Assembly: GCA_002256185.1 (NCBI GenBank)
Contig: NKIT01000008.1
Coordinates: 19,340 to 63,236, forward strand
DNA: 43,897 nucleotides
DNA from: Rhodobacteraceae bacterium PARR1
Lineage (GTDB): Bacteria > Pseudomonadota > Alphaproteobacteria > Rhodobacterales > Rhodobacteraceae
Reading direction: 5' to 3'
Part shown: one piece after another, positions 8,625 through 39,777 of the stretch
Position numbering within the stretch: the first letter of the stretch is position 1
Layout of the letters: the number at the start of each line of letters is the position of its first letter
Made by a program: the position numbers and the translations under genes
The notes under the pieces: generated by a model
Databases searched by the model: none
Told to the model about the DNA's origin: nothing
Seen by the model: only the letters and a program-made list of their open reading frames with translations

Positions 8625-8654
8625 AATAACCAGATGACATCAAGGACCAAGACC

Positions 8655-8936: not shown

Positions 8937-8942
8937 AAGAAA

Positions 8943-8970
8943 AGCCCCCCGCCTGTCAGGGCGAGGGGCT
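8943..8970. terminator. Bidirectional intrinsic terminator between convergent operons
   Basis: AGCCCCCCGCCT pairs with GGGCGAGGGGCT across a GTCA loop, with one mismatch and a terminal wobble. T-rich sequence follows on the plus side (ATTTTCC) and A-rich sequence precedes it (GAAAGAAAAGCC), which gives a U-rich tail on the minus strand. It separates the plus-strand kinase operon from the end of thuB. Confidence 0.8.
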
Positions 8971-8991
8971 GATTTTCCACAGGGCTGGCGT

Positions 8992-10835: not shown

Positions 10836-10879
10836 GGTTTTCTCCTTGTGCCCGGCGCAGGGCGCGGGTGTCGTGATGG

Positions 10880-11887: not shown

Positions 11888-11893
11888 GGTGGA

Positions 11894-13689: not shown

Positions 13690-13736
13690 CCGGGGTTCCC
13701 TCCCTTGAACCGTCAGAAAAGCGTGCAGAAACAAGC

Positions 13737-13763
13737 GGGCGGGCGGCGAAAGGCCGCCCGCCC
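13737..13763 (-). other. GC-rich hairpin in the thuE-thuF gap
   Basis: GGGCGGGCGGC pairs perfectly with GCCGCCCGCCC (11 bp) around a five-base GAAAG loop. There is no U-tract after it on the transcribed minus strand, so it is more likely an mRNA-stabilising or attenuating stem than a full terminator. Its place between the binding-protein and permease genes fits differential expression of thuE. Confidence 0.75.
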
Positions 13764-13786
13764 CAAGGGTCAGGCCAACCGGGAGG

Positions 13787-15070: not shown

Positions 15071-15158
15071 GATTTCCTCCGGTTGAAGCGGGGTCGCTTC
15101 CTCTCGACCCCTGTCAGTCAGACGTTCCGAAACCCGCTGCTCTTGGTGGCACCGATTA

Positions 15159-15203
15159 TCCGAAGCGCTTCGGAAATGTGCTGCAGCATCACCATTCCGT
15201 CAA
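15159..15203 (-). promoter_or_regulatory. thuE promoter with a 16-bp palindromic LacI-family operator
   Basis: TCCGAAGCGCTTCGGA at 15159-15174 is a perfect 16-bp palindrome with the central CG typical of LacI/GalR operators. On the minus strand a -35 TTGACG (15198-15203) is followed after exactly 17 bp by a weak -10 CACATT (15175-15180). The palindrome lies immediately downstream of the -10, over the expected start of transcription. A repressor bound there would block thuEFGKAB. ThuR, encoded next door, is the obvious candidate. Confidence 0.8.
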
Positions 15204-15236
15204 CAGAAATTTTCAAAGGGCTTTGGAAAGCCTGTC

Positions 15237-16298
15237 TCAGCCCCTCGGCGCGGGCCCGACAGAGCGGCGTTCGACAAAGCGGATATCTCCGATTAGTTGA
15301 AGCGCTTCAAGCGGTTGCCCTTCCAATGCGCCAACCAAAAGCCGCGCCATCGGTTCCCAACTGTCTTGCAAGGCGGCTTCCGTCACCGTCAGCGGCGGGT
15401 GCATGGCGGCAGTTTCGGGCGCGGGCAGCAGATCGTCATGCGCCACCACCGAAACATCGCCGGGGATGGACAAAGACAGCGCCTCCAGTGCTTCATAAAT
15501 GCCTTTTGCCAGCAATGAGTTACCAGCGATGAAGGCTGTCGGACGGTTTGTCTGGTTTTCCATGAGGCGGATGGTTTCGACCAGCCCGACCGATTGCCGC
15601 ATCTCTCCGTTCCTGTGCAAGGCAGGATCGAATCGTTCTCCGACGGCGGCAAGCGCATCGGCATAGCCCCTCATCCGGGCCAAACTGTAGGATCGGCCGT
15701 CCATCCCGTTCAGAAACGCGATGCGACGATGGCCAAGCGCCGTCAGATGTTTCGTCAGGCGATGCCCCACGGCATAATTGTCGATGTCGAAATAGGGATA
15801 GTCCACCGCTTCGAGGGTTCGGCCATGCAGCACAAAGGGAACTTCTCGCCGTTGCAGGAAGTGGACCCTTGGATCATCAACGCGGGAATCTACGACAACA
15901 AAGCCATCCAGCGCTGCGCTATCCACCAGCTTGCGATGCACCGCCACCGGATCATCCCGCTCATCGGCGATGTGCAGCAAGAAGCGGACATCCAACTTAC
16001 TGAAATTGTGTGATAATCCACTGATCATCTGAACAAACAGCGCGTCATTCGCCGCATGGCTTGGGGCTGGCACCACCAGACCCACCGTCCCGCTGCGCCC
16101 CGTCGCCAGCTTGCGCGCCGACAGGTTGGGCTGGTAGCGCAACTGACGCGCGGCGGCCATGACCTTTTCGCGTGTGGCCTCATTCACATCGGAATGGCCG
16201 TTCAGCGCACGGCTGATCTGGGTGACGGACAATCCCAGATGGCGACTCAGGTCTTTCAGCGTGGCCAAACTCGCCCCCTTTTTGCCCGGTATGGACAT
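15237..16298 (-). CDS. thuR: ThuR: LacI-family repressor of the thu operon
   Basis: LacI/GalR regulator of about 353 aa. The N-terminal helix-turn-helix reads TLKDLSRHLGLSVTQISRAL with the hinge helix NLSARKLATGRSGTVGLVV. A periplasmic-binding-protein-like sugar domain follows (MDGRSYSLARMRGYADAL, FIAGNSLLAKGIYEAL). The chosen ATG at 16298 has AAGG eight bases upstream; the tracked start at 16304 is a TTG. It is the first gene of the thu cluster, and a LacI-type operator variant lies about 50 bp upstream. In Sinorhizobium, thuR negatively regulates thu and is induced by trehalose. The match here rests on synteny and operator placement. Confidence 0.88.
   Translation of the reverse strand: MSIPGKKGASLATLKDLSRHLGLSVTQISRALNGHSDVNEATREKVMAAARQLRYQPNLSARKLATGRSGTVGLVVPAPSHAANDALFVQMISGLSHNFSKLDVRFLLHIADERDDPVAVHRKLVDSAALDGFVVVDSRVDDPRVHFLQRREVPFVLHGRTLEAVDYPYFDIDNYAVGHRLTKHLTALGHRRIAFLNGMDGRSYSLARMRGYADALAAVGERFDPALHRNGEMRQSVGLVETIRLMENQTNRPTAFIAGNSLLAKGIYEALEALSLSIPGDVSVVAHDDLLPAPETAAMHPPLTVTEAALQDSWEPMARLLVGALEGQPLEALQLIGDIRFVERRSVGPAPRG
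15297..15310. promoter_or_regulatory. Second palindromic operator candidate inside the 3' end of thuR
   Basis: TTGAAGCGCTTCAA is a perfect 14-bp palindrome that shares the core GAAGCGCTTC with the thuE operator about 138 bp away. It lies within the thuR coding sequence. LacI-family repressors often use auxiliary operators at such distances to form DNA loops, so this may be a secondary site. It could also be a coding coincidence. Confidence 0.55.
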
Positions 16299-16348
16299 CG
16301 TCAACGCCTTTTGATGGCGGTGTTGGCGGCGAAGTCAAGCGGCTTGGA

Positions 16349-16362: not shown

Positions 16363-16467
16363 GGGCGGTTCCATAGCCCCATGGGCGCGTGCAGATTGCG
16401 TGTGCCGGTGCAATGCCCCTACAGTCGTCCCAAAGGACAAAAGCCCGATGGGCAAAGGGAGGGGACT

Positions 16468-17934
16468 ATGCCGTTGGTGATCCGTCGCAAGGTGACGTTG
16501 GGCGTGGTGATCGGGTCGCGCGCATTTTTCTCGCCCGCGCCCTGTGCAGACGCGCGGCGCGATGTGCTGGCGCAGTTGGAAAAGCTGGGCGTGGACGTCA
16601 TCACCCTGCCGTTTGAGGCGACGGCGAATGGCGCGGTGCAATCGGTGGCCGATGCCGACCTTTATGCTGCTCACTTCCGCGCCCATGCCGACAGGATCGA
16701 CGGCTTGGTGATCTGCCTGCCGAACTTTGGCGACGAGATCGCGATTGCAGAACTGGTCAACCGCGCCCGCCTGAACGTGCCGATCCTGCTGCAAGCCAGC
16801 AATGATGAGGTGACAAAAGTCTCGGTCAAGGAACGCCGTGATGCGTTCTGCGGCAAGATCAGCGTGACCAACAACTTCTGGCAATATGGCGTGCCCTTCA
16901 CCGAAACCACGCACCACACCAGCGACACATGGGGCGATGAATTCGCCGCCGACCTTGACCGTTTCGCCCGCACCTGCCGCACCGTGCGCGGCTTGCGCGG
17001 CGCACGTCTGGGGGCCATCGGCGCGCGCACCGGCGCATTCCAGACCATGCGCTATTCGGAAAAACTGCTACAGGCGGCGGGGATCACGGTTGTGACCGTT
17101 GACCTGTCCGAGATGATGGGGGCCGCCATCGCGATCCGTGACGATGACCCGGCTTTGCAGGCCACCTTGGCGCGGGTGCAGTCCTATGGCATCATCCCGG
17201 CGCACATCAAACCCGCCCAAATCGCCAAACAGGCGCGCTGGACCTTGGCCGTCAACCGCTGGATCGAAGACAACGGCTGCGATGCCAGCGCCATCCAGTG
17301 CTGGCGGTCTTTGCAGGACAACTTCGGCTGCGCCACTTGTCTGACCATGTCCATGATGGGCGAAGACCTGATGCCAAGCGCGTGCGAGGTCGACATCATG
17401 GGTGCCCTGTCGATGTATGCGCTGGCCTTGGCCTCGGGTGCGCCGCCAGCCATCCTCGATTGGAACAACAACTACGCCTATGAGGAAGACATCTGCGTCT
17501 GTACCCATTGTGGCAATTACCCGAAATCCTTCATCGGTGACACGCCAGAGGTGGGGGAGTTGGATGTCTTGGGTGAAACCATCGGGCGCGAGAAATGCTT
17601 TGGCGCGGTGAAGGGCAAGGTAAAGCCCGGCCCGATGACCTATTTCCGCCTGTCCACCGATGATCGGCGCGGCACGGTGAAGTGCTATCTGGGTGAGGGC
17701 GAATTTACCGAACATCCATTCGCCATGGATGGCGGCATCGCTGTCAGCCGCGTGCCGCAACTGCGCAAGTTGTTGCGCTTTGTCACGCAAAACGGCTTTG
17801 AACACCATGTCGCCATGGTGCGCGGCCATCACGCCGATGTGGTGAATGAGGCGGTGACGCGCTACCTCGGCTGGCCGATCTACCACCACGGCGCAGAACC
17901 AGAGCCGCAGCTTTACATGCCCAACCGTTTCTGA
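16468..17934 (+). CDS. L-fucose/L-arabinose isomerase-family protein
   Basis: A protein of about 488 aa resembling the FucI/AraA-like fold family, which interconverts aldoses and ketoses using a divalent metal. Recognisable features are VIGSRAFFSPAPCADARRDV at the start, the glycine-rich GLRGARLGAIGARTGAFQTM, and AIQCWRSLQDNFGCATCLTM. It also has SACEVDIMGALSMYAL, where Glu and Asp resemble the catalytic/metal acidic pair of the isomerases, and a Cys-rich CVCTHCGNYPKSF. The start at 16468 has GGGAGGGG six bases upstream; the tracked start at 16381 would fall in the regulatory region. It is divergent from thuR and shares an operator-like sequence with it. The Cys-rich stretch is unlike textbook FucI, so the substrate is open. 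Confidence 0.8.
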   Translation: MPLVIRRKVTLGVVIGSRAFFSPAPCADARRDVLAQLEKLGVDVITLPFEATANGAVQSVADADLYAAHFRAHADRIDGLVICLPNFGDEIAIAELVNRARLNVPILLQASNDEVTKVSVKERRDAFCGKISVTNNFWQYGVPFTETTHHTSDTWGDEFAADLDRFARTCRTVRGLRGARLGAIGARTGAFQTMRYSEKLLQAAGITVVTVDLSEMMGAAIAIRDDDPALQATLARVQSYGIIPAHIKPAQIAKQARWTLAVNRWIEDNGCDASAIQCWRSLQDNFGCATCLTMSMMGEDLMPSACEVDIMGALSMYALALASGAPPAILDWNNNYAYEEDICVCTHCGNYPKSFIGDTPEVGELDVLGETIGREKCFGAVKGKVKPGPMTYFRLSTDDRRGTVKCYLGEGEFTEHPFAMDGGIAVSRVPQLRKLLRFVTQNGFEHHVAMVRGHHADVVNEAVTRYLGWPIYHHGAEPEPQLYMPNRF

Positions 17935-19971: not shown

Positions 19972-20004
19972 GGGTGGATTTACGCCCCAGTGCTGTTAGC
20001 TTTC

Positions 20005-20025
20005 CCGATATGTATCAGATTCGGG
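20005..20025. promoter_or_regulatory. Candidate arabinose-regulon operator upstream of GH127
   Basis: CCGATATGTATCAGATTCGG contains the 10-mer GATATGTATC, which recurs exactly (opposite strand) upstream of the importer operon at 28520-28529. A close relative, GATATACATC, lies upstream of GH51. It is only a few bases ahead of the GH127 ribosome site, a position where a bound repressor would block transcription. Confidence 0.55.
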
Positions 20026-20033
20026 GGTATGAA

Positions 20034-21926
20034 ATGCGGCGCTATTCTTCGGTTCCGTTTTCGGATGTGGCGATCACCGGGGCCTTTTGGTCCGAACGGC
20101 TTGAGGTAGTGCTGACCCGCACCATCCCCAGCCAGCATAAGCAGTTGGAGAAATTCAACATGCTTCGGTCGTTGAAACTGCCCAAACCCGTGCCGCCGAC
20201 CACGATCCCACCGCAAGCCACTGGTTTCACGACGGAAATCTTCTGGGACAGCGATATCGGCAAATGGGTTGAGGCGGCGGCCTATGCCCTGTCGCACCGC
20301 CGCGATGCGGGGGTTGAGGGGCAGATTGAATCCATCGTTGATGACCTGGAAAAGGCCCAAGCGCCCGATGGATACCTGAACTGCTGGTATCTGGAGCGCG
20401 AGCCGGAAAACCGCTGGACCAATCTGCGCGACAACCACGAACTTTATAACGCTGGTCACCTGCTGGAAGGCGCGGTTGCCTATTTGCGCGCCACCGGGCG
20501 GGACCGGATGCTGCGGGTTATGGAACGCTACATCGACCACATTGCCACCGTTTTTGGCCGGGGTCCGGGGCAAAAGCGCGGCTATTGCGGGCATCAGGAA
20601 ATCGAACTGGCGCTGGTCAAGGCTTTCCATGCCACCGGGCAGCGCAAGTATCTGGACCTTGCCACCTATTTCATCGACGAACGCGGCGCGCAGCCGCATT
20701 ACTTTGACCTTGAGGCGCAGGCGAGGGGAGAGGCACCGGGCAAATTCCACCAAGGCACGCATGAATATTCCCAATCGCATCTGCCCGTGCGCCAGCAGAC
20801 CAAGGTGGTCGGCCATGCGGTGCGCGCGATGTACATGTATTCCGCCATGGCCGATCTGGCGGCAGAGCATGGCGACGACAGCCTGAAGCGGGCTTGCGAA
20901 GTGCTTTGGCAGGATGTCACCCGCACCCGGATGTATGTGACGGGTGGCTTTGGTCCATCGGCCCGCAACGAAGGCTTCACGCAGGATTATGACCTGCCCA
21001 ACGACACCGCCTATGCCGAAACCTGTGCCAGCGTGGCGATGGTGTTCTGGGCGGCGCGGATGCTGAACCTTGACCTCGATGGGCAGTATGCGGACCTGTT
21101 GGAACTGGCCTTGTATAACAACGCCTTGGCGGGGCTGTCCAAAGACGGCGAGACCTATTTCTACGACAACAAACTGGACAGCGACGGCAGCCATCGCCGC
21201 TGGGAATGGCACCCGTGCCCCTGCTGCACGATGAACGTGGCGCGGCTTGTCGCCTCGGTCGGGGGGTATGTCTTTGGGCTCGCCGGGGATGAGGTGGCGC
21301 TGCATCTTTACGGCGGGGCTTCCGCGCGGTTGGCGGTGGCGGGAACGGCCGTGCAGATCACCGAAACCTCGGCTTACCCGTGGGATGGCGCGATCCGGGT
21401 GACGGTTGATCCTGAAACGCCCGCCGAATTCACCCTGTCGCTGCGCATTCCCTCTTGGTGCCATGACGCCACGCTAGCGATCAACGGCACGCCGACGGCT
21501 GTGCAGACCGAACGCGGTTACGCCCGTTTGCGGCGGCAGTGGCAGGCTGGGGATGTGGTGACGCTGACCCTGCCGATGGCGGCGGAACGGCTTTACGCCC
21601 ACCCGGATGTGAAAGCCGATGTCGGGCGGGTGGCGCTGCGCCGGGGGCCGCTGGTCTATTGTCTGGAAGCGCTGGATCAACCCGCGCCGCTGCACCGAAT
21701 CCGCCTGCCGCGCGGGGCGGCGCTGACATCGCGTTTCCGGGCGGACTTGCTGGGCGGGGTGGCGGTGGTTGAAGGCGTGGGACGCGCGACCGCAGACCAA
21801 GGGTTCGCGGAAACCCTCTACCGCACCGAACCGCCGACAGAGTCAGATGCCCCCCTGACCGCAGTGCCCTATTACATCTGGTGCAATCGCGGGCCGAACC
21901 CGATGCAGGTCTGGCTGCGGGAATGA
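20034..21926 (+). CDS. GH127 beta-L-arabinofuranosidase
   Basis: Glycoside hydrolase of about 630 aa that removes terminal beta-L-arabinofuranose, as HypBA1 of Bifidobacterium does. The (alpha/alpha)-barrel shows TGFTTEIFWDSDIGKWVEAA and LKRACEVLWQDVTRTRMYVT. The zinc-thiolate active site is intact: Glu329 and Cys331 in YAETCAS, and Cys397 and Cys398 in HPCPCCTMN. By comparison with HypBA1, Cys397 would be the nucleophile. There is no signal peptide, so it acts in the cytoplasm on imported oligosaccharides. The ATG at 20034, preceded by GGGGG, is preferred to the tracked 19974 start, which nearly abuts the regulator remnant. It converges on GH51 with a strong terminator between them. Confidence 0.92.
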   Translation: MRRYSSVPFSDVAITGAFWSERLEVVLTRTIPSQHKQLEKFNMLRSLKLPKPVPPTTIPPQATGFTTEIFWDSDIGKWVEAAAYALSHRRDAGVEGQIESIVDDLEKAQAPDGYLNCWYLEREPENRWTNLRDNHELYNAGHLLEGAVAYLRATGRDRMLRVMERYIDHIATVFGRGPGQKRGYCGHQEIELALVKAFHATGQRKYLDLATYFIDERGAQPHYFDLEAQARGEAPGKFHQGTHEYSQSHLPVRQQTKVVGHAVRAMYMYSAMADLAAEHGDDSLKRACEVLWQDVTRTRMYVTGGFGPSARNEGFTQDYDLPNDTAYAETCASVAMVFWAARMLNLDLDGQYADLLELALYNNALAGLSKDGETYFYDNKLDSDGSHRRWEWHPCPCCTMNVARLVASVGGYVFGLAGDEVALHLYGGASARLAVAGTAVQITETSAYPWDGAIRVTVDPETPAEFTLSLRIPSWCHDATLAINGTPTAVQTERGYARLRRQWQAGDVVTLTLPMAAERLYAHPDVKADVGRVALRRGPLVYCLEALDQPAPLHRIRLPRGAALTSRFRADLLGGVAVVEGVGRATADQGFAETLYRTEPPTESDAPLTAVPYYIWCNRGPNPMQVWLRE

Positions 21927-21969: not shown

Positions 21970-23487
21970 TCAGGTCAGCGCAACGCGGATGACCTGATAA
22001 GAAAACGGCGGCAAGCCCAGCTTAAGCGACCCATCTTCGACAATCGCGCCCGCGCCCTGCTTGGGGGCCACGTTCATCGGATTGACGGCGGTGTTCACGG
22101 CATAAAGGTCCGGATGGGTGATGACCTGATGGTCAATCACACGCCCCTGCGCGCCAAAGCCTTGCAGCGACAGCGAAAGATCCAACACCTCAGTCGGGTG
22201 GCGGTTGACGGCAAAGAAGCTGACCGTTCCGCCCGCTTCGTCATGCACACCCGAGATGTCCAGATACGGCACATTGTCGGCCACATCGGCATCATAGCCG
22301 GGGCAGACCACCGACAGGTTCAGCGCCGTGCCACGCCCGAAGATCGAGGCGAAGTAATAGGGGTAATAGATGGTCTGCCGCCAAGCCGCGCCCATCGGAT
22401 CGGTCATGATCGGCGCGATCACGTTCACCAACTGCGCGATACAGGCGATTTTGACGCTGTCAGAGCGGCGGATGAACGTGTTCAGGATACAGCCGACCTG
22501 CAACACATCCTCAAAGCAGTAGATATCTTCCAGCAGACGCGGCGCATGCGGCCAGCCCTCATTCCCGGCAAGGATAGCGCGGTCCTGTTCGTTCGAATGA
22601 TACCAGACATTCCATTCATCAAAGCTGATATAGACCTGATGCTTGGACCGCTTGTTCGCCTTGACCAGATTGATCGTCGACTGAACCGTTTCGATGTAGC
22701 GGTCCAGCTTGTGGTTCAGCGCCAGATAGTTGCCCGCGTGTTTCGTCCGGTTGGCGAAATACATGTGCAGGCTGATGTGATCGACCGACTCATAGGTGTG
22801 TTCCAGCACGATCCGTTCCCATTCGGGATAGGTTTTCATGTCGGAATTCGACGACCCGCAGACGATCAGTTCCAGCGATTTGTCAAAGGCGCGCAGGGCC
22901 TTGGCGGTTTCATTCGCGAGACGGCCGTATTCTTCGGCGGTCTTGTGGCCAACCTGCCACGGGCCGTCCATTTCGTTGCCCAGACACCACAGGCGGCAGT
23001 CAAAGGGTTCCGCGCGGCCGTTCTTCTTGCGCAGATCGCCCCAATAGCTGCCCGTCGGGCCGTTCACATATTCAACGAAATTCCGCGCCTCATCCAATCC
23101 CCGTGAGCCGAGGTTGATCGCCAGCATCATCTGCGTGCCAACCGTATCGCACCAGTCGGCGAATTCATGCACGCCCACTTGGTTCGACTCGGACGTATGC
23201 CACGCCAGATCCAGCCGCACCGGGCGCTGGTCGCGCGGGCCGACGCCGTCTTCCCAGTTGTAGGCCGACACGAAGTTGCCGCCCGGATAGCGCACATAAG
23301 GAATGTTCAGATCGCGCACCAACTGCGCCACATCGCTCCGCATGCCATTCTTGTCGGCGGTCGGGTGGTCGGGTTCGTAGATGCCGGTATAGATCGCCCG
23401 CCCGAGGTGTTCGAGGAACGCCGAATACACCCGGTCATCAATCCGGGCGATGGTATAGTCCTTGTGCGCAATGGCCGTCGCCTTCAT
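21970..23487 (-). CDS. abfA: GH51 alpha-L-arabinofuranosidase
   Basis: Exo-acting enzyme of about 505 aa that releases alpha-L-arabinofuranose from arabinan or arabinoxylan oligosaccharides. The acid/base is Glu172 (CLGNEMDGPW) and the nucleophile Glu291 (SFDEWNVWY). These positions and spacing are close to those of the characterised Geobacillus enzyme (175 and 294). Other signatures are GRAIYTGIYEPDHPTA and YVRYPGGNFVSAYNWEDGVG. There is no signal peptide. The ATG at 23487 has GGGAGGG nearby and begins MKATAIAHKDYTIARI; the tracked start adds 15 unsupported residues. It lies downstream of the ArsR-type regulator with a 139-bp gap that carries an inverted-repeat operator candidate. Confidence 0.94.
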   Translation of the reverse strand: MKATAIAHKDYTIARIDDRVYSAFLEHLGRAIYTGIYEPDHPTADKNGMRSDVAQLVRDLNIPYVRYPGGNFVSAYNWEDGVGPRDQRPVRLDLAWHTSESNQVGVHEFADWCDTVGTQMMLAINLGSRGLDEARNFVEYVNGPTGSYWGDLRKKNGRAEPFDCRLWCLGNEMDGPWQVGHKTAEEYGRLANETAKALRAFDKSLELIVCGSSNSDMKTYPEWERIVLEHTYESVDHISLHMYFANRTKHAGNYLALNHKLDRYIETVQSTINLVKANKRSKHQVYISFDEWNVWYHSNEQDRAILAGNEGWPHAPRLLEDIYCFEDVLQVGCILNTFIRRSDSVKIACIAQLVNVIAPIMTDPMGAAWRQTIYYPYYFASIFGRGTALNLSVVCPGYDADVADNVPYLDISGVHDEAGGTVSFFAVNRHPTEVLDLSLSLQGFGAQGRVIDHQVITHPDLYAVNTAVNPMNVAPKQGAGAIVEDGSLKLGLPPFSYQVIRVALT

Positions 23488-23534
23488 CTCGCGTCCCTCC
23501 CTGACGGTGCCGCCCGTTGTCTCAGGCGGCATGA

Positions 23535-23558
23535 GTATCTGGTTTACAGATATACATC
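23535..23558 (-). promoter_or_regulatory. Inverted-repeat operator candidate upstream of GH51
   Basis: TATCTG and CAGATA flank the spacer GTTTA (23536-23552), and the block continues into GATATACATC. This resembles the elements ahead of GH127 and the importer operon. It lies about 50 bp upstream of the GH51 start, where a repressor or activator would act. Confidence 0.55.
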
Positions 23559-23626
23559 AGGAAAATGGGAATTGCGTCAAGGCCAAACGCACGCAGCCCA
23601 TCACAGGGGTCGTCAGACGGGGGCCG

Positions 23627-24556
23627 TCACCGATCCGTGGTCAGCCGCATGATGATGTCTTGGTCATAGTTGCCGAACCCACGCCCGAAGATATTGATCC
23701 CCCCCGGATGGCGCGCGGAATCCTTGACCCCGATGCGAAAGCGGATCGACTTGTGCGCGCCAAGGTCCAGGTCTTTCAGCGACACGGGCGACATTTTCAG
23801 CCCGTCGACAAAGGTGCCCTCCTGCGTCACGCGCACCGATTTCAGCTTGCCATATTGGCTGCCCTTCAGCTTCCACCAATCGGGGGTATAGACTCCGCGC
23901 TGATCGCCAAAATCGCCCGGCGATGTCCATGTCCCGATGTCGATCTGGTTGATGGAAAAGGTGATGTCAGACGGCCAATCCGCCGCCGTGCCCGGCACTT
24001 CGGATGACAGTTCCATCGAAAACTCGACGGCATTCACCTGCGTATTCAGAAGCTTGGTGTTGTTGGGGAACTTGTATTCCACATAGCCGCGCGTGAACCA
24101 GATCAGCCCCGCCGTCATCCGCCCCGGATCAAGAAAGGTGTCCGGCACATCCAGAAGCCCGATGATCCCGGCGGTCGAACACAGACCGCAGGGCGCCGTC
24201 ACCTCGCAGCTTGTGTACAGGCCCAAGGGCATCGCCACCTCGATCACATTGTCCTTGGTGGCGGTGTTGTCCTTCTTGAACATCACCAACACCTCTTCGA
24301 ACAAGGGGTGGCAAATCTTCTGGTTGCCCTTCTTGGCACGCTGGGTCTCGGTGCGGATCAGGCCCGCATCCTCCAGCGATTGGACATTGGCGGAGATGCT
24401 GGACTGCGGCATCTCCATCGCCGCTGCCACGGCGTTGACGTTCATCGGCCCTTGTTGATGCAGTAATTTCAGAATGCCGATCCGCACCGGGGATGCCAAG
24501 GCTTTCAGGGTTTCAATCCCCTCTTCGGGATCGACGATCAGGAAGTTGCGGCTCAT
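23627..24556 (-). CDS. ArsR-type transcriptional regulator with a large C-terminal domain
   Basis: A 309-aa protein. Residues 1-80 form an ArsR-like winged helix (LKALASPVRIGILKLLHQQG, SISANVQSLEDAGLIRTETQ). The following 220 residues are not part of classical ArsR proteins, which are usually about 100 aa. This part contains a Cys pair (APCGLCST) and is rich in Trp, Gly and beta-type sequence (INQIDIGTWTSPGDFGD, GVYTPDWWKLKGSQYG), suggesting a jelly-roll or sugar-binding fold. Its position between LacI and GH51 in an arabinose locus makes it a candidate sugar-responsive regulator. The start has AAAGG seven bases upstream. The ligand and the fold are inference. Confidence 0.82.
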   Translation of the reverse strand: MSRNFLIVDPEEGIETLKALASPVRIGILKLLHQQGPMNVNAVAAAMEMPQSSISANVQSLEDAGLIRTETQRAKKGNQKICHPLFEEVLVMFKKDNTATKDNVIEVAMPLGLYTSCEVTAPCGLCSTAGIIGLLDVPDTFLDPGRMTAGLIWFTRGYVEYKFPNNTKLLNTQVNAVEFSMELSSEVPGTAADWPSDITFSINQIDIGTWTSPGDFGDQRGVYTPDWWKLKGSQYGKLKSVRVTQEGTFVDGLKMSPVSLKDLDLGAHKSIRFRIGVKDSARHPGGINIFGRGFGNYDQDIIMRLTTDR

Positions 24557-24580: not shown

Positions 24581-24602
24581 CCCTCTGTATCAGCTTTTCG
24601 GG
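24581..24602 (-). promoter_or_regulatory. Weak regulon-like element upstream of the ArsR-type gene
   Basis: Read on the minus strand, CCCGAAAAGCTGATACAGAG shares CTGATACA and the preceding CCCGAA with the reverse of the GH127 element (CCCGAATCTGATACATATC). It lies about 25 bp ahead of the regulator start, as an autoregulatory site would. Confidence 0.4.
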
Positions 24603-24634
24603 TTTGGTCAAATCTGGCGTGCCACGGCGGACCT

Positions 24635-25636
24635 TCACCGCCTCGGCCCGGTGATCGAGGCGCGTTCCACCAACTCGCAATCCAGCTTCATCCGCAGCGG
24701 TGCTGTGGGGGCAGGGGACAACAACCGATCCACCGCCCAGCGGGCCATTTCATCATGCGGCAGGACCATCGTGGTCAGCGGTGGTTGCAGGGTGGCCGCG
24801 ATGTCGTCGTTGTCAAAGCCGATCACGGACAGATCGTCGGGCAGGCGCAACCCGCGCTCCGCCGCCGCTTCATAGACCCCCAGCGCGACGCGGTCGTTGA
24901 AGCAAAAGATTGCGGTCGGCGGGTTTGGTTGCGAAAGCAGCGCAAGGGCCGATGCCCGCCCCGATGCCGCTGTCCATGCCGGGGTCGCCAAAAGCGACGG
25001 ATCAAAGGGCACATCCGCACTCGCCAAGGCGCGGCGATAGCCCAAGGCGCGGTCGCGCGCGGCCTCTCCCCAATCCTCGCCGGGGATATGGGCGATGCGG
25101 CGATGGCCTGCGCGGATCAGCGCGGTCGTTGCGGCAAATCCCGCCAGCACATCCCCCGGTACAACAGATGCCAAAGGGCTGCGCGCGGCGTGGCAATTCA
25201 GCAGCACGGCGGGCAGACCGTCCAAGGCGGCAGGCGGCTGCACCGCCCGCGTCACAAGGCTGGCATAGATCACCCCCGCCAGCCGTGTGGCGCGCAGACT
25301 GGCCAGCGCCGCCGCCTCCACCATCGGATCGCCGCCGGTGCAGCAGACCAGCACCAGCGCCCCTTGGGTAGCGGCCTCAAGCCGGGCACCTTCGATGAAC
25401 GGGGGTGCAAAGGGGGTTGTCACCACCTCATCAATCAGCAGACCGATCACCGGCGCGCCGCCCTGTTGCACCGATGCCTTGCGGGTGTAGCCCAGTTCCG
25501 CCGCAACACCCTGCACCCGCTGCCGCGTGGCTTCGGCAATCCGCGCATTGGCGACACCGTTCAGGACCAGCGACACCGTCGCCTGCGACACCCCCGCCCG
25601 CTGGGCAATATCGGACAAGGTCGCGCGTTTGGTCAT
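24635..25636 (-). CDS. LacI-family regulator, divergent from the GH2 gene
   Basis: LacI/GalR regulator of 333 aa with helix-turn-helix TLSDIAQRAGVSQATVSLVL and a sugar-binding core (VIGLLIDEVVTTPFAPPFIE, HRRIAHIPGEDWGEAARDRA, FCFNDRVALGVYEAAAERGL, VIGFDNDDIAATLQPPLTTM). It is divergent from GH2 with a 111-bp gap and lies 78 bp upstream of the ArsR-type gene on the same strand. It probably controls GH2 and perhaps the ArsR-GH51 transcript. No clear palindromic CG-centred operator was found in the divergent gap, so the site could not be assigned. Confidence 0.9.
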   Translation of the reverse strand: MTKRATLSDIAQRAGVSQATVSLVLNGVANARIAEATRQRVQGVAAELGYTRKASVQQGGAPVIGLLIDEVVTTPFAPPFIEGARLEAATQGALVLVCCTGGDPMVEAAALASLRATRLAGVIYASLVTRAVQPPAALDGLPAVLLNCHAARSPLASVVPGDVLAGFAATTALIRAGHRRIAHIPGEDWGEAARDRALGYRRALASADVPFDPSLLATPAWTAASGRASALALLSQPNPPTAIFCFNDRVALGVYEAAAERGLRLPDDLSVIGFDNDDIAATLQPPLTTMVLPHDEMARWAVDRLLSPAPTAPLRMKLDCELVERASITGPRR

Positions 25637-25747: not shown

Positions 25748-28489
25748 ATGCAAGAGCAGACGGTGACGGGCGCGCGGCAAATGATGTCTTTGGATGGCGC
25801 ATGGGACTTCCGGCATCAGGATGGCCCGTGGCGGGTCGCCACCGTGCCGGGGCCGTGGCAGGCAGAGTTTGCGGACCTGCGCCACAGCTCTGGCCGCGCG
25901 GTCTATCGCCGCCGTTTTTCGGTGCCGGATCATGCGCCGGGCACCGAAATCGTGCTGCACTTCGGCGCGGTCTTTTACTTCGCCACCGTCCGTGTGAATG
26001 GCATCGAGGTCGGCAAAAACGACAACGGCTGGCTGCCCTTTGACTGCGTGATCCCCCCCGCCCTCCTGCGGTCGGAAAATGAGGTGACGGTGGATTGCCT
26101 TCTGCCCGATGGCGATCCGGCCACCAGTCCCGACGCGCCCTTTGCCGAAATCCCGCATGGCAAGCAAAGCTGGTATGGCCCGACCGGCGGCATCTGGCAA
26201 AGCGTGGCGCTTGAGTTGCGCCACCCCTGCCACCTGACCCATGCCGCCATCGCGGCTGATCCCTCGGGGCGCGTCGGCGTCACGCTGCACCTGTCGCAAC
26301 CTTCCGACATCCGCCTGACGGTGATTGACCCCACTGGCGCGCGCGTGCTGCACCACGACCTGACGGCATCCGACACCACCATCACGGCCACGCTGACCGT
26401 GGACACCCCGCGCCTTTGGGGGCCGGATCACCCTGACCTCTACCGCCTGCGGGTGGAAATCGTCCGTGGCGCCGTGCTGGACCGGACAGAGCACAGCTTT
26501 GGCTTCCGCCACTTTGAAGCCCGCGACGGCAAGTTCTTCCTGAACGGCGCACCGTTCTACATGCGGGCTGCGCTGGATCAGGATTACTACCCCGAAGGCA
26601 TCTGCACCCCGCCCTCGATGGCCTATATCGAAGACCAGTTCCGCAAGGCGCGCGAGTTGGGCCTGAACATGCTGCGGACCCATATAAAAATCCCCGACCC
26701 GCGTTATTACGACGCCGCAGACCGGATGGGCCTGCTGATCTGGACCGAAATCCCCAACGTCGCCACCTTCACCGATGCCTCGGCAAGCCGGATGAAAGCG
26801 ATGATGGAGGGGATCATCGCCCGCGACGGCAATCACCCCAGCATCGTGATCTGGACCCTGATCAACGAGGATTGGGGCACACGCCTGTGCGAAGACCCCG
26901 CGCATCGGGCGTGGCTGGCGGCAACCTATGACTGGCTGAAACAGCGCGATCCGGGGCGGCTGGTGGTGGACAACTCCCCCTGCCACGGCAACTTCCATGT
27001 GAAAACCGATATCGACGATTTCCACTATTACCGCTCCGTCCCCGAACGGCGGGCCGAATGGGATGCGCTGACGGCGGAATTCGCAGGCCGCGCGGATTGG
27101 ACATTCTCGCCCTTTGGCGACGGGCAAAGGCGCGGCGATGAGCCCTTGGTCGTGTCCGAATTCGGGGTCTGGGGTCTGCCCCACCCCGATCAGGTGCGGA
27201 TCAATGCGGCAGAGCCATGGTGGATGGAAACCGGCGGCGCATGGGGCGACGGCGCGGCCTATCCGCATGGTGTGCAGGACCGTTTCGCGCAGATGCGGCT
27301 GGAACGGGTGTTCGGCAGCTTTGACGGCTTTGTCGCCGCCGTGCAGGGCTACCAATTCGCCAACCTGAAATATGAGATCGAGTCGATGCGCTCTCACGCG
27401 CCGATTCAGGGCTATGTCATCACCGAGTTTACCGATGTTCATTGGGAGTCTAACGGACTTCTCGATATGAACCGCAATCCCCGGTCGTTCCATGACCAGT
27501 TCGGCACCATCAACGCCGATGTGGTCATCGTCCCGCAGATTGACAGCTATGCCGGTTGGGCCGGGGATGTGTTTGAAATCGGCCTGTCGGTGGCGACGGG
27601 GGGGCAGGCGCTGCCTGCCGCTGACCTGCATTGGACCTTTGCCGATGCCAGCGGGGTTTGCCCCGTTGCCGCGACGCCCGCGCTCGCCGTGGCCCGGACC
27701 GAAGGGATTCGCCTGCGCCTGCCGGACAATGGCGCGAACCGGATGCTGGTGCTGGACCTGTGCCTGATGGCGGGCGGTCAGGTGCTGGCAACCAACCGGG
27801 TTGAATTCGCGCTTTATCATCGCCCGTCTCTGGCCGGGATGCCGACAGTGGGCAGTGCCGATCCCGCGCTGGCCGCCGATCTGGCGGCGCTGGGTCTGAC
27901 GGTGCTGCCCCCGGAAAAGGCAGATGTCACCGTGGCCCATGCGCTGGACGGGCAAGACATCGCCCGGATGCAGGGCGGCGCGAAATACCTTTTGATTGCA
28001 GATGGTTCCGGCGGTCTGCGCCTGCGGACAGATATGCCGCCGCGCGACCAACCCTTTATCCCGATTGTCGATGACATCCCCGGCCTGCCCATCAGCCAAG
28101 AGGGGCAGGTGCCAAATATGGTATTGCACCCCCGCCAAGGCACGATCTGGCGCGGCGACTGGATTGCCGGGTTTTCGTGGATCAGGCGCGCGGGCGTGTT
28201 TGCCGACATTCCGGGCGGCCCCTTGGTCGACCTGTCCTTTGACCGGGTGATTCCCCACCATGTGCTGACCGGATTCCGCACATGGGAATATGGTGGGCCG
28301 GTGCATGCGGGGCTGGTGGTCGGCTGGTGCCAGAAACCTGCTGCGCTGATCGCCGAACGGGCCGTGGGGCGCGGCCATCTGGTCGCCACCACCTTCCGTC
28401 TGCGGGCGGATGCACCGGGCCTTGATCCTGTTGCCACGGCTTTGACCCATGCAATGCTGCGTCTGGCCGGAAATGGCGGAGGCGCATAG
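25748..28489 (+). CDS. GH2-family glycoside hydrolase
   Basis: A 913-aa retaining exo-glycosidase with the GH2 layout. The N-terminal sugar-binding jelly roll has SLDGAWDFRHQDGPWRVATV and SWYGPTGGIWQSVALELR. An immunoglobulin-like domain follows, then a TIM barrel from about residue 260. Acid/base Glu374 is in WTLINEDWG, and the likely nucleophile is Glu471 (VVSEFGVWG). A further conserved-looking Glu560 (VITEFTDVHW) comes later. About 300 C-terminal residues carry extra domains. GH2 covers beta-galactosidases, beta-glucuronidases, beta-mannosidases and some arabinosidases; the specificity cannot be read here. No signal peptide is present. AGGGA six bases upstream supports the start. It is divergent from LacI and followed by the arabinose importer. 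Confidence 0.9.
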   Translation: MQEQTVTGARQMMSLDGAWDFRHQDGPWRVATVPGPWQAEFADLRHSSGRAVYRRRFSVPDHAPGTEIVLHFGAVFYFATVRVNGIEVGKNDNGWLPFDCVIPPALLRSENEVTVDCLLPDGDPATSPDAPFAEIPHGKQSWYGPTGGIWQSVALELRHPCHLTHAAIAADPSGRVGVTLHLSQPSDIRLTVIDPTGARVLHHDLTASDTTITATLTVDTPRLWGPDHPDLYRLRVEIVRGAVLDRTEHSFGFRHFEARDGKFFLNGAPFYMRAALDQDYYPEGICTPPSMAYIEDQFRKARELGLNMLRTHIKIPDPRYYDAADRMGLLIWTEIPNVATFTDASASRMKAMMEGIIARDGNHPSIVIWTLINEDWGTRLCEDPAHRAWLAATYDWLKQRDPGRLVVDNSPCHGNFHVKTDIDDFHYYRSVPERRAEWDALTAEFAGRADWTFSPFGDGQRRGDEPLVVSEFGVWGLPHPDQVRINAAEPWWMETGGAWGDGAAYPHGVQDRFAQMRLERVFGSFDGFVAAVQGYQFANLKYEIESMRSHAPIQGYVITEFTDVHWESNGLLDMNRNPRSFHDQFGTINADVVIVPQIDSYAGWAGDVFEIGLSVATGGQALPAADLHWTFADASGVCPVAATPALAVARTEGIRLRLPDNGANRMLVLDLCLMAGGQVLATNRVEFALYHRPSLAGMPTVGSADPALAADLAALGLTVLPPEKADVTVAHALDGQDIARMQGGAKYLLIADGSGGLRLRTDMPPRDQPFIPIVDDIPGLPISQEGQVPNMVLHPRQGTIWRGDWIAGFSWIRRAGVFADIPGGPLVDLSFDRVIPHHVLTGFRTWEYGGPVHAGLVVGWCQKPAALIAERAVGRGHLVATTFRLRADAPGLDPVATALTHAMLRLAGNGGGA

Positions 28490-28505: not shown

Positions 28506-28568
28506 GTATCGCACAAACCGATACATATCTGAAAATCGGTTGACACAAGGGCGGCTGGCTCATTAGCC
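28506..28568 (+). promoter_or_regulatory. Promoter of the arabinose importer with regulon elements
   Basis: GTATCG and CGATAC form an inverted repeat with a 7-bp spacer (28506-28524), directly overlapping GATACATATC at 28520-28529. A perfect -35 TTGACA lies at 28540-28545 and, after 17 bp, a weak -10 TTAGCC at 28563. The operator candidates sit just upstream of the -35, a position compatible with activation or with repression by overlap. Confidence 0.6.
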
Positions 28569-28710: not shown

Positions 28711-28730
28711 GCGACATGGGAGGTCTATGG

Positions 28731-29999
28731 ATGAAACGCCTGTTCAGTGCGGCCGTTCTGGCTGCTGTATTTGCTTCTCCGATGGCGATGGCCAAGGAGA
28801 CGGTTGTGTGGTGGGACTTCCTCGGCGGCGGTGACGGCGTCCGGATGAAGAAGCTCATCGAAGACTTCAACGCCGCGCATGCCGACACCATCGAAATTCA
28901 GGCGACGACGCTGGATTGGGGTGTGCCCTTTTACACCAAGGTGCAAACCTCTGCCGCCGTGGGCGAAGGCCCGGACGTGATGACCTATCACGCCTCGCGC
29001 ATTCCGCTGGCCGTCAGCCAAAGCACCCTGACCGAAATCACGCCTGACGACATGGCGGCGATGGGCCTCAGCGCCGACAGCTTTGCCAAGGAAACCTGGG
29101 ATGCGGTCAACGTCGATGGCAAGCAATATGCCGTGCCCTTCGATACGCACCCCATCGTGCTGTATTACAACAAGGACTTGCTGGAAAAGTCGGGTCTGAT
29201 CGGGGCTGATGGCCTGCCCGCTGGCTTGGACGGCAAGGACAACTTCACCGCCGCACTGCAAAAGCTGAAGGATGACGGCAACGAATGGTCCATCGTGCAG
29301 GTGACCGCTGACGGCGGCTTTGCCTTCCGCACGATCTATTCGCTGCTCTGCCAGCAGAACGGCAGCATCGGCGGCGATGGCGCGTGGTTCCCCGATGACA
29401 ACGCCGACAAACTGGCCAATGCCGTGCAGGTCATTTCGGATTGGGTCGGCGCGGGCTTCAACCCCAGCTACACCGACTATCCGTCGACCGTGGCGCTGTT
29501 CACCTCGGGCGCGTCGCCCTTCATGATCAACGGCGTGTGGGAAGTCCCGACCATGGTTGACCTGCAATCGCAGGGCAAACTGTTCAACTGGGGTGCCATC
29601 GAACTGCCGGTGCTGTTCGACAAGCCCTGCACCTATGCAGACAGCCACTCTTTCGCCATCCCGAACAACGCGGGCAAACCTGCGACCCCGGAAAAGCATG
29701 CGGCCGTGCTTGAGGTCATCAAGTATATGTCCGACAACTCGCTCTTCTGGGCGACGGCGGGTCACGTTCCGGCCAACGTGGCTGTGACCGAAACCGCCGA
29801 ATACAAGGCGATGCAGCCGCAGGCGACCTATGCCAAGCTGACCGCCAATCAGGTGTTCGACCCCAAGTCGGTGCATGCCGGTGTGGCCTCTGCCCTGTTT
29901 GACTCGGCAGGCAACGCCTTTACCGCAGCGATCAACGGCGAAACCGATCCCGCCACTGCCGTTGCGGAAATGAAAGCCACCATGGACGCGCTGCAATAA
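28731..29999 (+). CDS. Periplasmic sugar-binding protein of the arabinose-locus importer
   Basis: Family-1 solute-binding protein of about 422 aa with a signal peptide (LFSAAVLAAVFASPMAMA). The mature protein starts KETVVWWDFLGGGDGVRMKK; later segments include VGEGPDVMTYHASRIPLAV and YAVPFDTHPIVLYYNKDLLE. The ATG at 28731 is chosen because GGGAGG lies just ahead of it; the tracked ATG at 28716 would place the ribosome site inside the gene. Surrounding GH127, GH51 and GH2 genes suggest it binds arabinose-containing oligosaccharides. It is the first gene of an operon running to 34698. Confidence 0.92.
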   Translation: MKRLFSAAVLAAVFASPMAMAKETVVWWDFLGGGDGVRMKKLIEDFNAAHADTIEIQATTLDWGVPFYTKVQTSAAVGEGPDVMTYHASRIPLAVSQSTLTEITPDDMAAMGLSADSFAKETWDAVNVDGKQYAVPFDTHPIVLYYNKDLLEKSGLIGADGLPAGLDGKDNFTAALQKLKDDGNEWSIVQVTADGGFAFRTIYSLLCQQNGSIGGDGAWFPDDNADKLANAVQVISDWVGAGFNPSYTDYPSTVALFTSGASPFMINGVWEVPTMVDLQSQGKLFNWGAIELPVLFDKPCTYADSHSFAIPNNAGKPATPEKHAAVLEVIKYMSDNSLFWATAGHVPANVAVTETAEYKAMQPQATYAKLTANQVFDPKSVHAGVASALFDSAGNAFTAAINGETDPATAVAEMKATMDALQ

Positions 30000-30010
30000 C
30001 GCGCATCTTT

Positions 30011-30038
30011 TGGCGGGCCTTGACCCCAAGGCCCGCCA
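30011..30038 (+). other. GC-rich hairpin in the binding-protein/permease gap
   Basis: TGGCGGGCCTTG pairs perfectly with CAAGGCCCGCCA (12 bp) around an ACCC loop, 11 bases after the binding-protein stop. No U-tract follows. It is positioned to stabilise the upstream message or reduce read-through into the permeases. Confidence 0.75.
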
Positions 30039-30065
30039 ATCTGCGCCCGCCAATCTGCGCCCGCC
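30032..30065. repeat. 14-bp tandem duplication beside the hairpin
   Basis: CCCGCCAATCTGCG occurs twice in direct succession, followed by a partial third copy (CCCGCC). The first copy overlaps the right arm of the hairpin, so the duplication may have grown from the stem by slippage. Confidence 0.7.
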
Positions 30066-30102
30066 GAACCGCATCCGACAATTCGCACCGACCGGAGGCC
30101 AC

Positions 30103-30981
30103 ATGCTCAGGAACCGTCGCAGCGACCTTGTCGTCGCCTATCTGCTGACCGCCCCTTTCATCCTTGTCTACGCATGGCTGTTCGTCTGGCCGGTGGTGCA
30201 GATGGTGATGCTGACCTTTACCGACGCGCCACTGATCGGCGACGGCAAAGCGGTTGGTTTCGCCAATTACGAACGGATGTTCAAAGACCCGGTGTTCTTC
30301 AAGGCGATCTGGAACACCTCGTATTTCGTCCTCTTGACCGTGATCCCCGGCACCGCTGTCGCCCTTGGCATCGCGCTGATGGTGTCGCGTCTGGGGGGAT
30401 GGCTGCAAAGCGCGGTGCTGGCGGCGTTCTTCCTGCCCTATATCCTGCCGGTCACCGTGGTCTATGTGATCTGGGATTGGCTGACCAACGTGCAATTCGG
30501 GATGCTGCAAAGCGTGCTGGAATGGGTGACAGGCCGCCCCGTCAACCTGTGGCGCGCGATCCCGTGGTTCATGCCCAGCGTGGCGGTCATCACCATCTGG
30601 TGGACCAACGGCTTTTCGATCCTGCTGTTTCTGGCAGGCTTGCGGAACATCCCCAAAGACCTCTATGAGGCGGCGGCTTTGGACGGTGCCACCCGCTGGC
30701 AGATGTTCAGCCGCATCACCTGGCCCCTGATCTGGCCGATCACCGTGCTGTGCCTGACGATCCAACTGATCCTGCAACTGAAGATCTTCGATCAGGTCTA
30801 TCTCTTTGCAACCGGCGGGCGCACGCAGGCGACGATGGTGCTGGTCCAGTATATTTACGAACAGGCATTCCAAAAGAACGCCAGCGGCTATGCGGCAACG
30901 ATTGCGCTGGCCTTGTTCGTGATCGTCGTCGTGTTCTCTGTCCTGCAATTCCAACTTCTTCGCATCCGGGGGCAGAAATGA
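30103..30981 (+). CDS. ABC importer permease 1 (MalF type), arabinose locus
   Basis: Inner-membrane permease of about 292 aa. The first membrane segment is VVAYLLTAPFILVYAWLFVW, and the EAA loop reads DLYEAAALDGATRWQMFSRI. The ATG at 30103 is preceded by CCGGAGG, a strong ribosome site. The tracked start at 30010 would translate the intergenic hairpin and tandem repeat and is rejected. It overlaps permease 2 by four bases (ATGA). Confidence 0.92.
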   Translation: MLRNRRSDLVVAYLLTAPFILVYAWLFVWPVVQMVMLTFTDAPLIGDGKAVGFANYERMFKDPVFFKAIWNTSYFVLLTVIPGTAVALGIALMVSRLGGWLQSAVLAAFFLPYILPVTVVYVIWDWLTNVQFGMLQSVLEWVTGRPVNLWRAIPWFMPSVAVITIWWTNGFSILLFLAGLRNIPKDLYEAAALDGATRWQMFSRITWPLIWPITVLCLTIQLILQLKIFDQVYLFATGGRTQATMVLVQYIYEQAFQKNASGYAATIALALFVIVVVFSVLQFQLLRIRGQK

Positions 30982-31853
30982 GCGGCGATCCCACCACCCG
31001 CGACACCTCGCAATCCACGGCGCTGTCACATCTGACACGCTCTCCGGCGGGGATACTCCTGACCCTGCTGACGCTGATCTGCGCCGCGATCTGGTTCTTT
31101 CCGATCTACTGGGCCATCATCACCAGCCTGCGCAGCGATCAGGCCACGGTTCAGGAATTCGGGATGCTGCCGACCGAGCCGACGCTCAGCGGCTATATCT
31201 TCGCCATCGTCAATTCCGAACTGCCGATCTGGTATCTGAACTCCACCATCGTGTCGGTCAGCGTCACCGTTCTGGTGGTGTTCATGTCCGCCTGCACCGG
31301 CTTTGCCATCTCGCAACTCAGGTTTCCGGGGCGGATGGTGCTATGGTGGACGATCCTTACCAGCTTCATGGTGCCGATCACGGCGCTGATCGTGAACCAC
31401 TTCATCATCATCGCCGGGGTCAAACTGCTGAACACCCATATCGGGATGATCCTGCCGATGCTCCTTAGCCCCGTCACGGTCATCGTCTACAAGCAATTCT
31501 TCGACGGCCTGCCCAAGGAATTCCGCGAGGCGGCGGTGATGGACGGCGCAACCGAACTCCAAGTGTTCCTGCGGGTGTTCCTCCCGATGAACTGGGGGGT
31601 GACCACCGCGCTGGCCATCATCACCTTCATCGGCGCGTGGAACAGCTTCCTGTGGCCGTTCCTCGTGGCGCAGGATGAGAAGATGATGACCGTCACCGTC
31701 GGTGTCTCTGCGGTGCAGGATGCATACGGCGTGGCCTATGGCCGCGTGCTGGCCGGGGCGGTGCTGGCCTCCTTGCCGGTGGCGCTGGCCTATCTGTTCT
31801 TTCAACGCCGCGTCACGCAGGCAATCACTCTTTCTGCTGGGATCAAGGGATAG
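30978..31853 (+). CDS. ABC importer permease 2 (MalG type), arabinose locus
   Basis: Inner-membrane permease of about 291 aa beginning MSGDPTTRDTSQSTALSHLT, with first membrane segment ILLTLLTLICAAIWFFPIYW and EAA loop EFREAAVMDGATELQVFLRV. The C-terminus TLSAGIKG is the usual tail of this subunit. The start overlaps the permease 1 stop and the gene ends two bases before the ATPase start, so the three subunits are tightly coupled. The tracked ORF beginning at 30750 runs antisense-like through permease 1 in another frame and is too long. Confidence 0.92.
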   Translation: MSGDPTTRDTSQSTALSHLTRSPAGILLTLLTLICAAIWFFPIYWAIITSLRSDQATVQEFGMLPTEPTLSGYIFAIVNSELPIWYLNSTIVSVSVTVLVVFMSACTGFAISQLRFPGRMVLWWTILTSFMVPITALIVNHFIIIAGVKLLNTHIGMILPMLLSPVTVIVYKQFFDGLPKEFREAAVMDGATELQVFLRVFLPMNWGVTTALAIITFIGAWNSFLWPFLVAQDEKMMTVTVGVSAVQDAYGVAYGRVLAGAVLASLPVALAYLFFQRRVTQAITLSAGIKG

Positions 31854-31855
31854 TC

Positions 31856-32941
31856 ATGGCGTCTGTAGAGCTTTCTCAACTGACCAAGCGGTTCGGCGGG
31901 TTAGAGGTCATCAGCGGTCTGAACCTGTCGGTCGAGGACGGGTCGTTCTGCGCCCTTCTCGGCCCCTCAGGCTGCGGCAAATCCACGCTTTTGCGAATGG
32001 TGGCGGGGCTGGAAACGGTGACCAGCGGCACGGTGCGCATCGGCGACCGTGACGTGACCAGCACGGAACCCAAAAGCCGCGGCGTGGCGATGGTGTTCCA
32101 ATCCTACGCCCTTTATCCGCACCTGACGGTGGCCGAAAACATCGCCTTCAGCTTGTCTTTGGCCGGGGTGTCCAAGGCGAAGAAAACCGAACATGTCGCC
32201 CGCGTTGCCGCCATGCTGCGCCTTGAACCGCTGCTGGAACGCAAACCTGCCCAACTGTCCGGCGGTCAGCGCCAGCGTGTTGCCATCGGTCGCGCCTTGG
32301 TGCGCGATCCGTCGGTGTTCCTGTTCGATGAACCCTTGTCGAACCTTGACGCCCTTCTGCGCGTGCAGATGCGTCTGGAACTGGCCAAACTGCACAATGA
32401 CCTGAAAACCACGATGATCTACGTGACCCATGATCAGGTTGAGGCCATGACCTTGGCCGACAAGATCGTGGTCTTGGACAAGGGCGTGATCTCTCAGGCT
32501 GGGTCCCCGTGGGAGCTTTACAATCGCCCCGCCAACCGCTTTGTCGCGGGCTTCATCGGCTCGCCGGGGATGAATTTCCTGAAAGGGCAGGCGCGGCACA
32601 CGGGCGACGGTGTCAGCGTCACCTTGCAAGGCGGCATCACCCTGACCCTGCCGCCCCGCGCCGTTGCCGCTTTCACAGGCGAACGCAGTGTGGAAATCGG
32701 TATCCGCCCGGAACATGTGACGCTCGCCAGTGGTTCGGATGCACAGATCAGTGGCAAGGCATCAGTCGTGGAATATCTGGGCAACACATCCTTCGCCTAT
32801 GTCGACACAGCCCAAGGGTCCATCATCGTGCAGGCAGACGGCGCCACCCGGATCAATGCGGGCGATACGGTTGGACTGGCCCTGACCACGGCAGAGGCCC
32901 ATATCTTTGACGACACCGGCCAAGCCTGGCCGCATCTCTGA
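31856..32941 (+). CDS. ABC importer ATPase (MalK/UgpC type), arabinose locus
   Basis: ATPase of 361 aa that powers the arabinose-locus importer. Walker A is GPSGCGKST, signature [20 protein letters not shown], Walker [13 protein letters not shown], and H-loop [17 protein letters not shown]-terminal regulatory domain includes VEIGIRPEHVTLASG. It follows the second permease by two bases with AAGGGA as ribosome site. The aldo/keto reductase begins 15 bp downstream. Confidence 0.93.
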   Translation: MASVELSQLTKRFGGLEVISGLNLSVEDGSFCALLGPSGCGKSTLLRMVAGLETVTSGTVRIGDRDVTSTEPKSRGVAMVFQSYALYPHLTVAENIAFSLSLAGVSKAKKTEHVARVAAMLRLEPLLERKPAQLSGGQRQRVAIGRALVRDPSVFLFDEPLSNLDALLRVQMRLELAKLHNDLKTTMIYVTHDQVEAMTLADKIVVLDKGVISQAGSPWELYNRPANRFVAGFIGSPGMNFLKGQARHTGDGVSVTLQGGITLTLPPRAVAAFTGERSVEIGIRPEHVTLASGSDAQISGKASVVEYLGNTSFAYVDTAQGSIIVQADGATRINAGDTVGLALTTAEAHIFDDTGQAWPHL

Positions 32942-35642: not shown

Positions 35643-36710
<1,068 letters not shown>

Positions 36711-36713
36711 GAC

Positions 36714-37709: not shown

Positions 37710-37720
37710 GATGCGACTCC

Positions 37721-39672: not shown

Positions 39673-39728
39673 CGTCGCCTCGTTTCAAAGCCATGATAAG
39701 GGGCGGGCAGGGTCGCCCCCACCCGCAA

Positions 39729-39768
39729 GGTTCCGCAAGGAACCGACCCCGGCAGTCACCCGCCGGGG
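39729..39768 (-). other. Two tandem hairpins in the binding-protein/permease gap
   Basis: GGTTCC-GCAA-GGAACC (39729-39744) and CCCCGGC...GCCGGGG (39747-39768, eight-base loop) lie side by side in the 105-bp gap. On the transcribed minus strand the GC-rich stem comes first, nine bases after the binding-protein stop. Neither has a U-tract. The GCAA loop closed by C-G is a stable GNRA-type tetraloop. Confidence 0.7.
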
Positions 39769-39777
39769 CCAAAGCGA

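Follow-up and report, generated by a model that had tools for sequence, protein, structure and literature searches.

The window, that is, the whole stretch of 43,897 nucleotides analysed here from Rhodobacteraceae bacterium PARR1, contains on its minus strand an arbR-like regulator gene (23627-24556; an open reading frame of 309 aa with an ATG start), hereafter arbR. In tandem with it lies arfA (21970-23532, minus strand), a GH51 arabinofuranosidase gene whose product scores 859.6 bits against the NCBIfam equivalog for arabinosylfuranosidase ArfA (NF051901; cut-off 625); its start is likelier at 23487 (MKATAIAHK), and the NF051901 match begins at residue 16. A GH127 β-L-arabinofuranosidase-type gene lies beyond arfA on the plus strand (20034-21926; Pfam GH127, E 7e-105), for which we take the in-frame ATG at 20034, preceded by GGGGG, as the start instead of 19974. 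Upstream of arbR are a gene for a LacI-family regulator (24635-25636, minus strand), a GH2 glycosidase gene divergent from it (25748-28489, plus strand) and a CUT1 sugar ABC transporter made up of a binding protein, two permeases and an ATPase (28716-32941, plus strand). With GH127, GH51, LacI, GH2 and CUT1 genes around arbR, the original prediction of an L-arabinofuranoside locus was correct. The window proteins that were searched yielded no gene for L-arabinose catabolism. The locus has two more CUT1 ABC systems at its flanks (8992-16304 and 35643-42182), both with a LacI regulator of their own and one also with ThuA and GFO/IDH/MocA oxidoreductase genes. A protein with an L-fucose-isomerase C-terminal domain is encoded at 16381-17934; its nearest NCBIfam model, sulfoquinovose isomerase, is far under cut-off (87.7 of 700 bits).

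The arbR gene is single-copy in the source genome, and the conservation of its length and C-terminal part across hundreds of homologues shows that it is no chance open reading frame. Residues about 13-84 (24305-24520, minus strand) correspond to an ArsR-type winged helix-turn-helix, as had been proposed. They match Pfam HTH_20 (E 6.8e-11 at residues 20-69) and HTH_5/ArsR (E 3.3e-6), both above cut-off, and fall narrowly under the cut-off of NCBIfam HTH_metalloreg (NF033788; 53.3 bits against 55). The winged helix in the model comprises helices 14-20, 23-35, 40-46 and 51-63 plus a wing, and ArsR-family structures stand near the top of the Foldseek list for the whole-protein model. In sequence and model, ArbR has this winged helix in common with the ArsR/SmtB metalloregulators SmtB, CzrA, CadC and ArsR. 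Those, however, are proteins of about 100 aa with metal sites and without a large C-terminal domain, whereas ArbR is a two-domain protein of 309 aa and not a small single-domain metalloregulator; judged by its sequence features it is classed as bearing an ArsR-type helix-turn-helix, not as a metalloregulator. Its place among orthologous groups may be COG4189, which is nearly absent from the literature searched.

The rest of the protein is a C-terminal domain of about 205 residues (residues about 101-309; 23630-24256, minus strand), mostly β in the model. No Pfam or NCBIfam family matched residues 85-309, and among 14 diverse members the 25 most often matched Pfam families were all of helix-turn-helix type. 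One of the helix-turn-helix matches of ArbR, narrowly above cut-off, is to PF01978 (TrmB). The archaeal TrmB proteins are one-component regulators in which a winged helix is joined to a C-terminal sugar-sensing part, as proposed for ArbR. The TrmB sugar-binding domain, however, was found neither in the window protein nor among those 25 families, and the C-terminal model of ArbR is a β-sandwich. We modelled the C-terminal part separately, the whole-protein AlphaFold2 model (49 relatives; mean pLDDT 79.7, pTM 0.61) having given mixed alignments that span both domains; folded alone, it reached a mean pLDDT of 73 and a pTM of 0.76. Foldseek with this model returned mostly carbohydrate-binding β-sandwiches (CBM15, CBM35, CBM22, legume lectins) and PL7, alongside the non-sugar proteins BcsB, PorU and hinokiresinol synthase. 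All fold matches are below TM 0.6 and too weak for assignment, including those to CBM15 (0.43 by query, 0.56 by target) and CBM35 (0.37 and 0.53); with CBM15, CBM35 and legume lectins the model has the general two-sheet architecture in common, at about 10% identity, so membership of those families does not follow. Neither Pfam nor Foldseek assigned the domain, originally taken for a sugar sensor, to a known non-sugar domain, and the fold matches fit sugar binding by ArbR but do not prove it. Parts of the model fall below pLDDT 50, and two stretches of it are unsure, residues about 121-149 and 217-234; a good number of the best-conserved residues fall in these two stretches, which may make up a ligand or dimer site.

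Alignment of the 14 members revealed invariant residues that include G112, Y114, C123, G124, W153, F154, E160, Y161, S196-D197-I198, N203, D215, P225, G285-G286 and G291. The cysteine pair CGLC highlighted in the original prediction (residues 123-126; 24179-24190, minus strand) is present in the window protein but is not a family feature: C123 is invariant, whereas position 126 is Cys only among the closer members from alphaproteobacteria, with Ala or Leu taking its place in Enterococcus, Deinococcus and distant paralogues. This pattern of conservation led us to reject CGLC as a general switch for redox state or metal. That ArbR senses metal or redox state like the classical ArsR/SmtB proteins, through C123/C126 or C82, is suggested by its ArsR-type winged helix and the invariance of C123. 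We nevertheless regard this as highly improbable: the α3 position of the metal site (helix region 40-46) has no Cys or His, C82, like C126, is not conserved beyond the closer alphaproteobacteria, and no metal genes adjoin arbR homologues in the neighbourhoods surveyed.

The evidence on relatives comes from sequences of about a hundred genomes. A scan of GTDB contigs found 289 stretches encoding ArbR homologues, the best 80 of which are nearly all full-length and 68-99% identical. A tblastn search of plasmids gave 264 records, 259 of them covering at least 80% of the query, chiefly from Rhizobium and Sinorhizobium and also from Deinococcus (43%) and Enterococcus (38-41%). Under even sampling arbR is uncommon, occurring in 5 of 200 genomes sampled from the phylum and 7 of 385 from the class (counts that include the window genome); single-sequence and profile searches of viral contigs found no relatives.

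Linkage to sugar loci, the lack of which would speak against a carbohydrate role, proved overwhelming. We surveyed 84 alphaproteobacterial loci, three of which stop at a contig edge; GH51 directly adjoins arbR in 79 of the 81 informative ones, while the remainder of the locus varies, Rhodobacteraceae having a CUT1 transporter and GH2, and Devosia an SBP_bac_5-type (Opp/Dpp) transporter instead. In four more divergent alphaproteobacteria an SBP_bac_5 gene or its transporter comes after arbR, and in three of the four the contig also carries GH51. The homologue is divergent from GH51 on an E. faecalis plasmid, from a LacY-type permease and GH43 in E. raffinosus, and from GH2 and an ABC transporter in Deinococcus. 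On this E. faecalis plasmid (L087, NZ_CP092577) the GH51 gene at 8019-9785 is truncated by IS1216, and the plasmid bears vanA-cluster genes. The exceptions outside arabinofuranosidase loci are two loci without GH51 (L050 and L052) and one, next to glycosyltransferases, of three distant paralogues, 33-36% identical, in a 2.0-Mb genome of the same class (G295). These paralogues (L100, L101 and L102) adjoin GH43/sulfatase, glycosyltransferase and GH2 genes, and in that genome the family appears to have extended its range to other sugars. L052 has an operator-like site (21 bits; 8930-9050) just downstream of arbR with arfA absent, which would fit a deletion that removed arfA but left its promoter.

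Comparison of promoter regions pointed to a predicted operator with the core ATCAG-N5-CTGAT (extended form CTGAT-N4-ATCAG-N5-CNGAT), present at the arbR, arfA and transporter promoters. Upstream of arbR the core has on average 1.59 mismatches, against about 3.65 in shuffled sequence, and CTGAT-N4-ATCAG in the arbR-arfA gap has 1.57; such dyads stand out at particular spacings only, most other spacings being near background. The half-sites are 10 bp apart from centre to centre, that is, one helical turn, as with ArsR-family dimers. In the window the predicted operators lie at the promoters of arbR (24589-24603, minus strand; ACCCG-N5-CTGAT, by the consensus over 74 promoters), arfA (23537-23560, minus strand; CTGATGTATATCTGTAAACCAGAT) and the ABC transporter (28508-28541, plus strand; core CCGATACATATCTGAAAATCGGTT at 28518), and immediately before the GH127 gene (19995-20028; CTGATACATATCGGGAAAGC on the minus strand). 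A matrix built from 58 distinct gap sites, without the window and its nearest relatives, found its best window sites before the ABC transporter (top match, 28518-28541, 27.7 bits), arfA (23537-23570, 25.8 and 24.4 bits) and GH127 (21.5 bits, 0.03 expected), with 0 to 0.03 expected by chance. A looser core pattern lacking the A/T-rich middle had 169 genome matches and was replaced by a refined pattern; this matches four times across the 4.09-Mb genome and nowhere but at the promoters of arfA, the transporter and GH127, the absence elsewhere being the informative part, since the pattern was partly shaped on the window sites. Across 1.19 Mb of related loci, matches of at least 19 bits occur almost only before arfA (the training sites), before arbR and SBP/ABC genes (outside the training set), or some 1.7 kb beyond the arfA site; the single instance inspected there (L048) is an SBP_bac_5 gene. 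Transporter promoters of relatives, outside the training set, also bear the operator.

The operator also co-occurs with the regulator. Among Rhodobacteraceae and class samples, arfA genes with an adjacent arbR have a mean operator score of 17.4 (n=13), against 1.7 for those without (n=17; Mann-Whitney p = 4e-5), a comparison partly confounded by relatedness, since the groups also differ in GH51 identity. One locus without arbR (L104), however, has a 68% identical GH51 and an operator score of -0.7, so relatedness is unlikely to be the cause of the difference. Co-occurrence also bears on whether the operator belongs instead to the neighbouring LacI-family protein (24635-25636), with ArbR doing something else. 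LacI regulators are the usual sugar regulators, and this gene lies 78 bp from arbR on its upstream side and is transcribed away from GH2. Yet arbR lacks a neighbouring LacI ortholog at most loci that bear the operator (Devosia, Rhizobium, Pelagibacterium), the operator vanishes together with arbR, and the usual LacI palindrome has a central CG, unlike the ATCAG/CTGAT repeat with its 5-bp spacing; we think this attribution improbable. Upstream of arfA in the clade of L136, L138, L139 and L140, half-sites CCGGTnnnnACCGG appear instead of CNGATnnnnATCNG, and the operator may have shifted along with the regulator. In Enterococcus, TTAACA half-sites (TATTAACAAATATGTTAATA; L087:9860-9960 and L091:7880-7930) replace ATCAG/CTGAT, fitting the different recognition helix there.

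The position of the predicted operator differs among promoters. A σ70 scanner, which requires the final T of the -10 element, called no promoter in the region, and promoters were called instead from cross-species conservation. In the 74 arbR promoters the operator occupies the 16-bp spacer of TTGAnT...TAnAnA, in the window between TTGACC (24606-24611) and TACAGA (24584-24589). An operator filling this spacer would block RNA polymerase, which argues for autorepression, and arbR is probably autoregulated. At arfA the operator lies over or just after the -10 element. At the transporter promoter it is upstream-adjacent to a conserved TTGACA (28540-28545 in the window, which it abuts) followed by N18 or N16 to the -10 element, an arrangement conserved in 11 Rhodobacteraceae and also in Devosia and its relatives.

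We consider it likely that ArbR is a one-component L-arabinofuranoside regulator. The N-terminal winged helix, as a dimer, would bind the ATCAG-N5-CTGAT inverted repeat and a neighbouring half-site, and would govern arbR itself, arfA, the sugar ABC transporter and the GH127 gene. From the operator positions we infer that ArbR would repress arbR and arfA, and that binding of L-arabinose or an arabinofuranosyl oligosaccharide to the C-terminal domain would make it leave the DNA. The most likely effector is one of these two sugars, a choice favoured by a putative regulon of import and cleavage genes and the absence of an L-arabinose catabolic gene among the window proteins searched. Carbohydrate regulation, as originally suggested, draws good support from the predicted operators. 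At the transporter promoter, with the operator at the upstream edge of the -35 element, repression and activation would both be possible. ArbR might even be mainly an activator, or dual, repressing its own gene and activating the transporter with sugar needed for activation; a site directly upstream of a conserved TTGACA is typical of many activators. We find this unlikely, though less so than the attribution to LacI: at arbR the operator sits in the spacer between the -35 and -10 elements and at arfA on or past the -10 element, the transporter -35 is already perfect and should need little help, and ArsR-family proteins are mostly repressors. More tentatively than the general scheme of a repressor released by sugar, we suggest that the C-terminal domain could be a new family of CBM-like β-sandwich sensor, joined to an ArsR-type winged helix in Pseudomonadota, Bacillota and Deinococcota. 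It would read intracellular arabinofuranosyl oligosaccharides, and the regulator might repress its own gene and that of the enzyme but act in another way at the transporter promoter.

A regulator of this kind has been described from genomes in Caldicellulosiruptor bescii. ArbA (also printed ArbR) was introduced in 2021 as the first member of the ArsR family with a role in carbohydrate use; its gene and abfA diverge from an intergenic region that holds three predicted sites, and it was inferred from mapped start sites to be a repressor (PMC8579813), which also speaks against ArbR as an activator. ArbA is a probable relative: in both cases an ArsR-type protein is encoded beside an arabinofuranosidase gene, with predicted sites in the promoter region. 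ArbA is divergent from abfA, as the Enterococcus homologue is from GH51, whereas alphaproteobacterial arbR is in tandem with arfA and has the ATCAG/CTGAT operator; the available part of PMC8579813 does not describe a sensor domain. The arabinan cluster of Geobacillus 56T3 lists an ArsR regulator (1352; PMC4428132) beside a binding protein, two permeases, GH43 and GH2, a likeness by annotation alone. The class is therefore fairly called little-described, as the original prediction had it, but is not new. No description of the sensor domain or of the alphaproteobacterial regulon was found in our literature search, which did not extend to most subscription papers.

Judged from sequence, ArbR is a genuine and widespread sugar regulator that carries the wrong annotation; it is a variant of a kind of which there had been an earlier glimpse. 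Rhizobia and related plant-associated bacteria commonly have it, and its current annotation as 'metalloregulator', 'ArsR family' or 'helix-turn-helix protein' gives it a misleading name in many genomes; Pfam and NCBIfam have no entry for its sensor domain. Its predicted operator and small regulon are concrete and readily testable, and would add the sugars of the plant cell wall to the metals and redox cues that ArsR-type regulators respond to.
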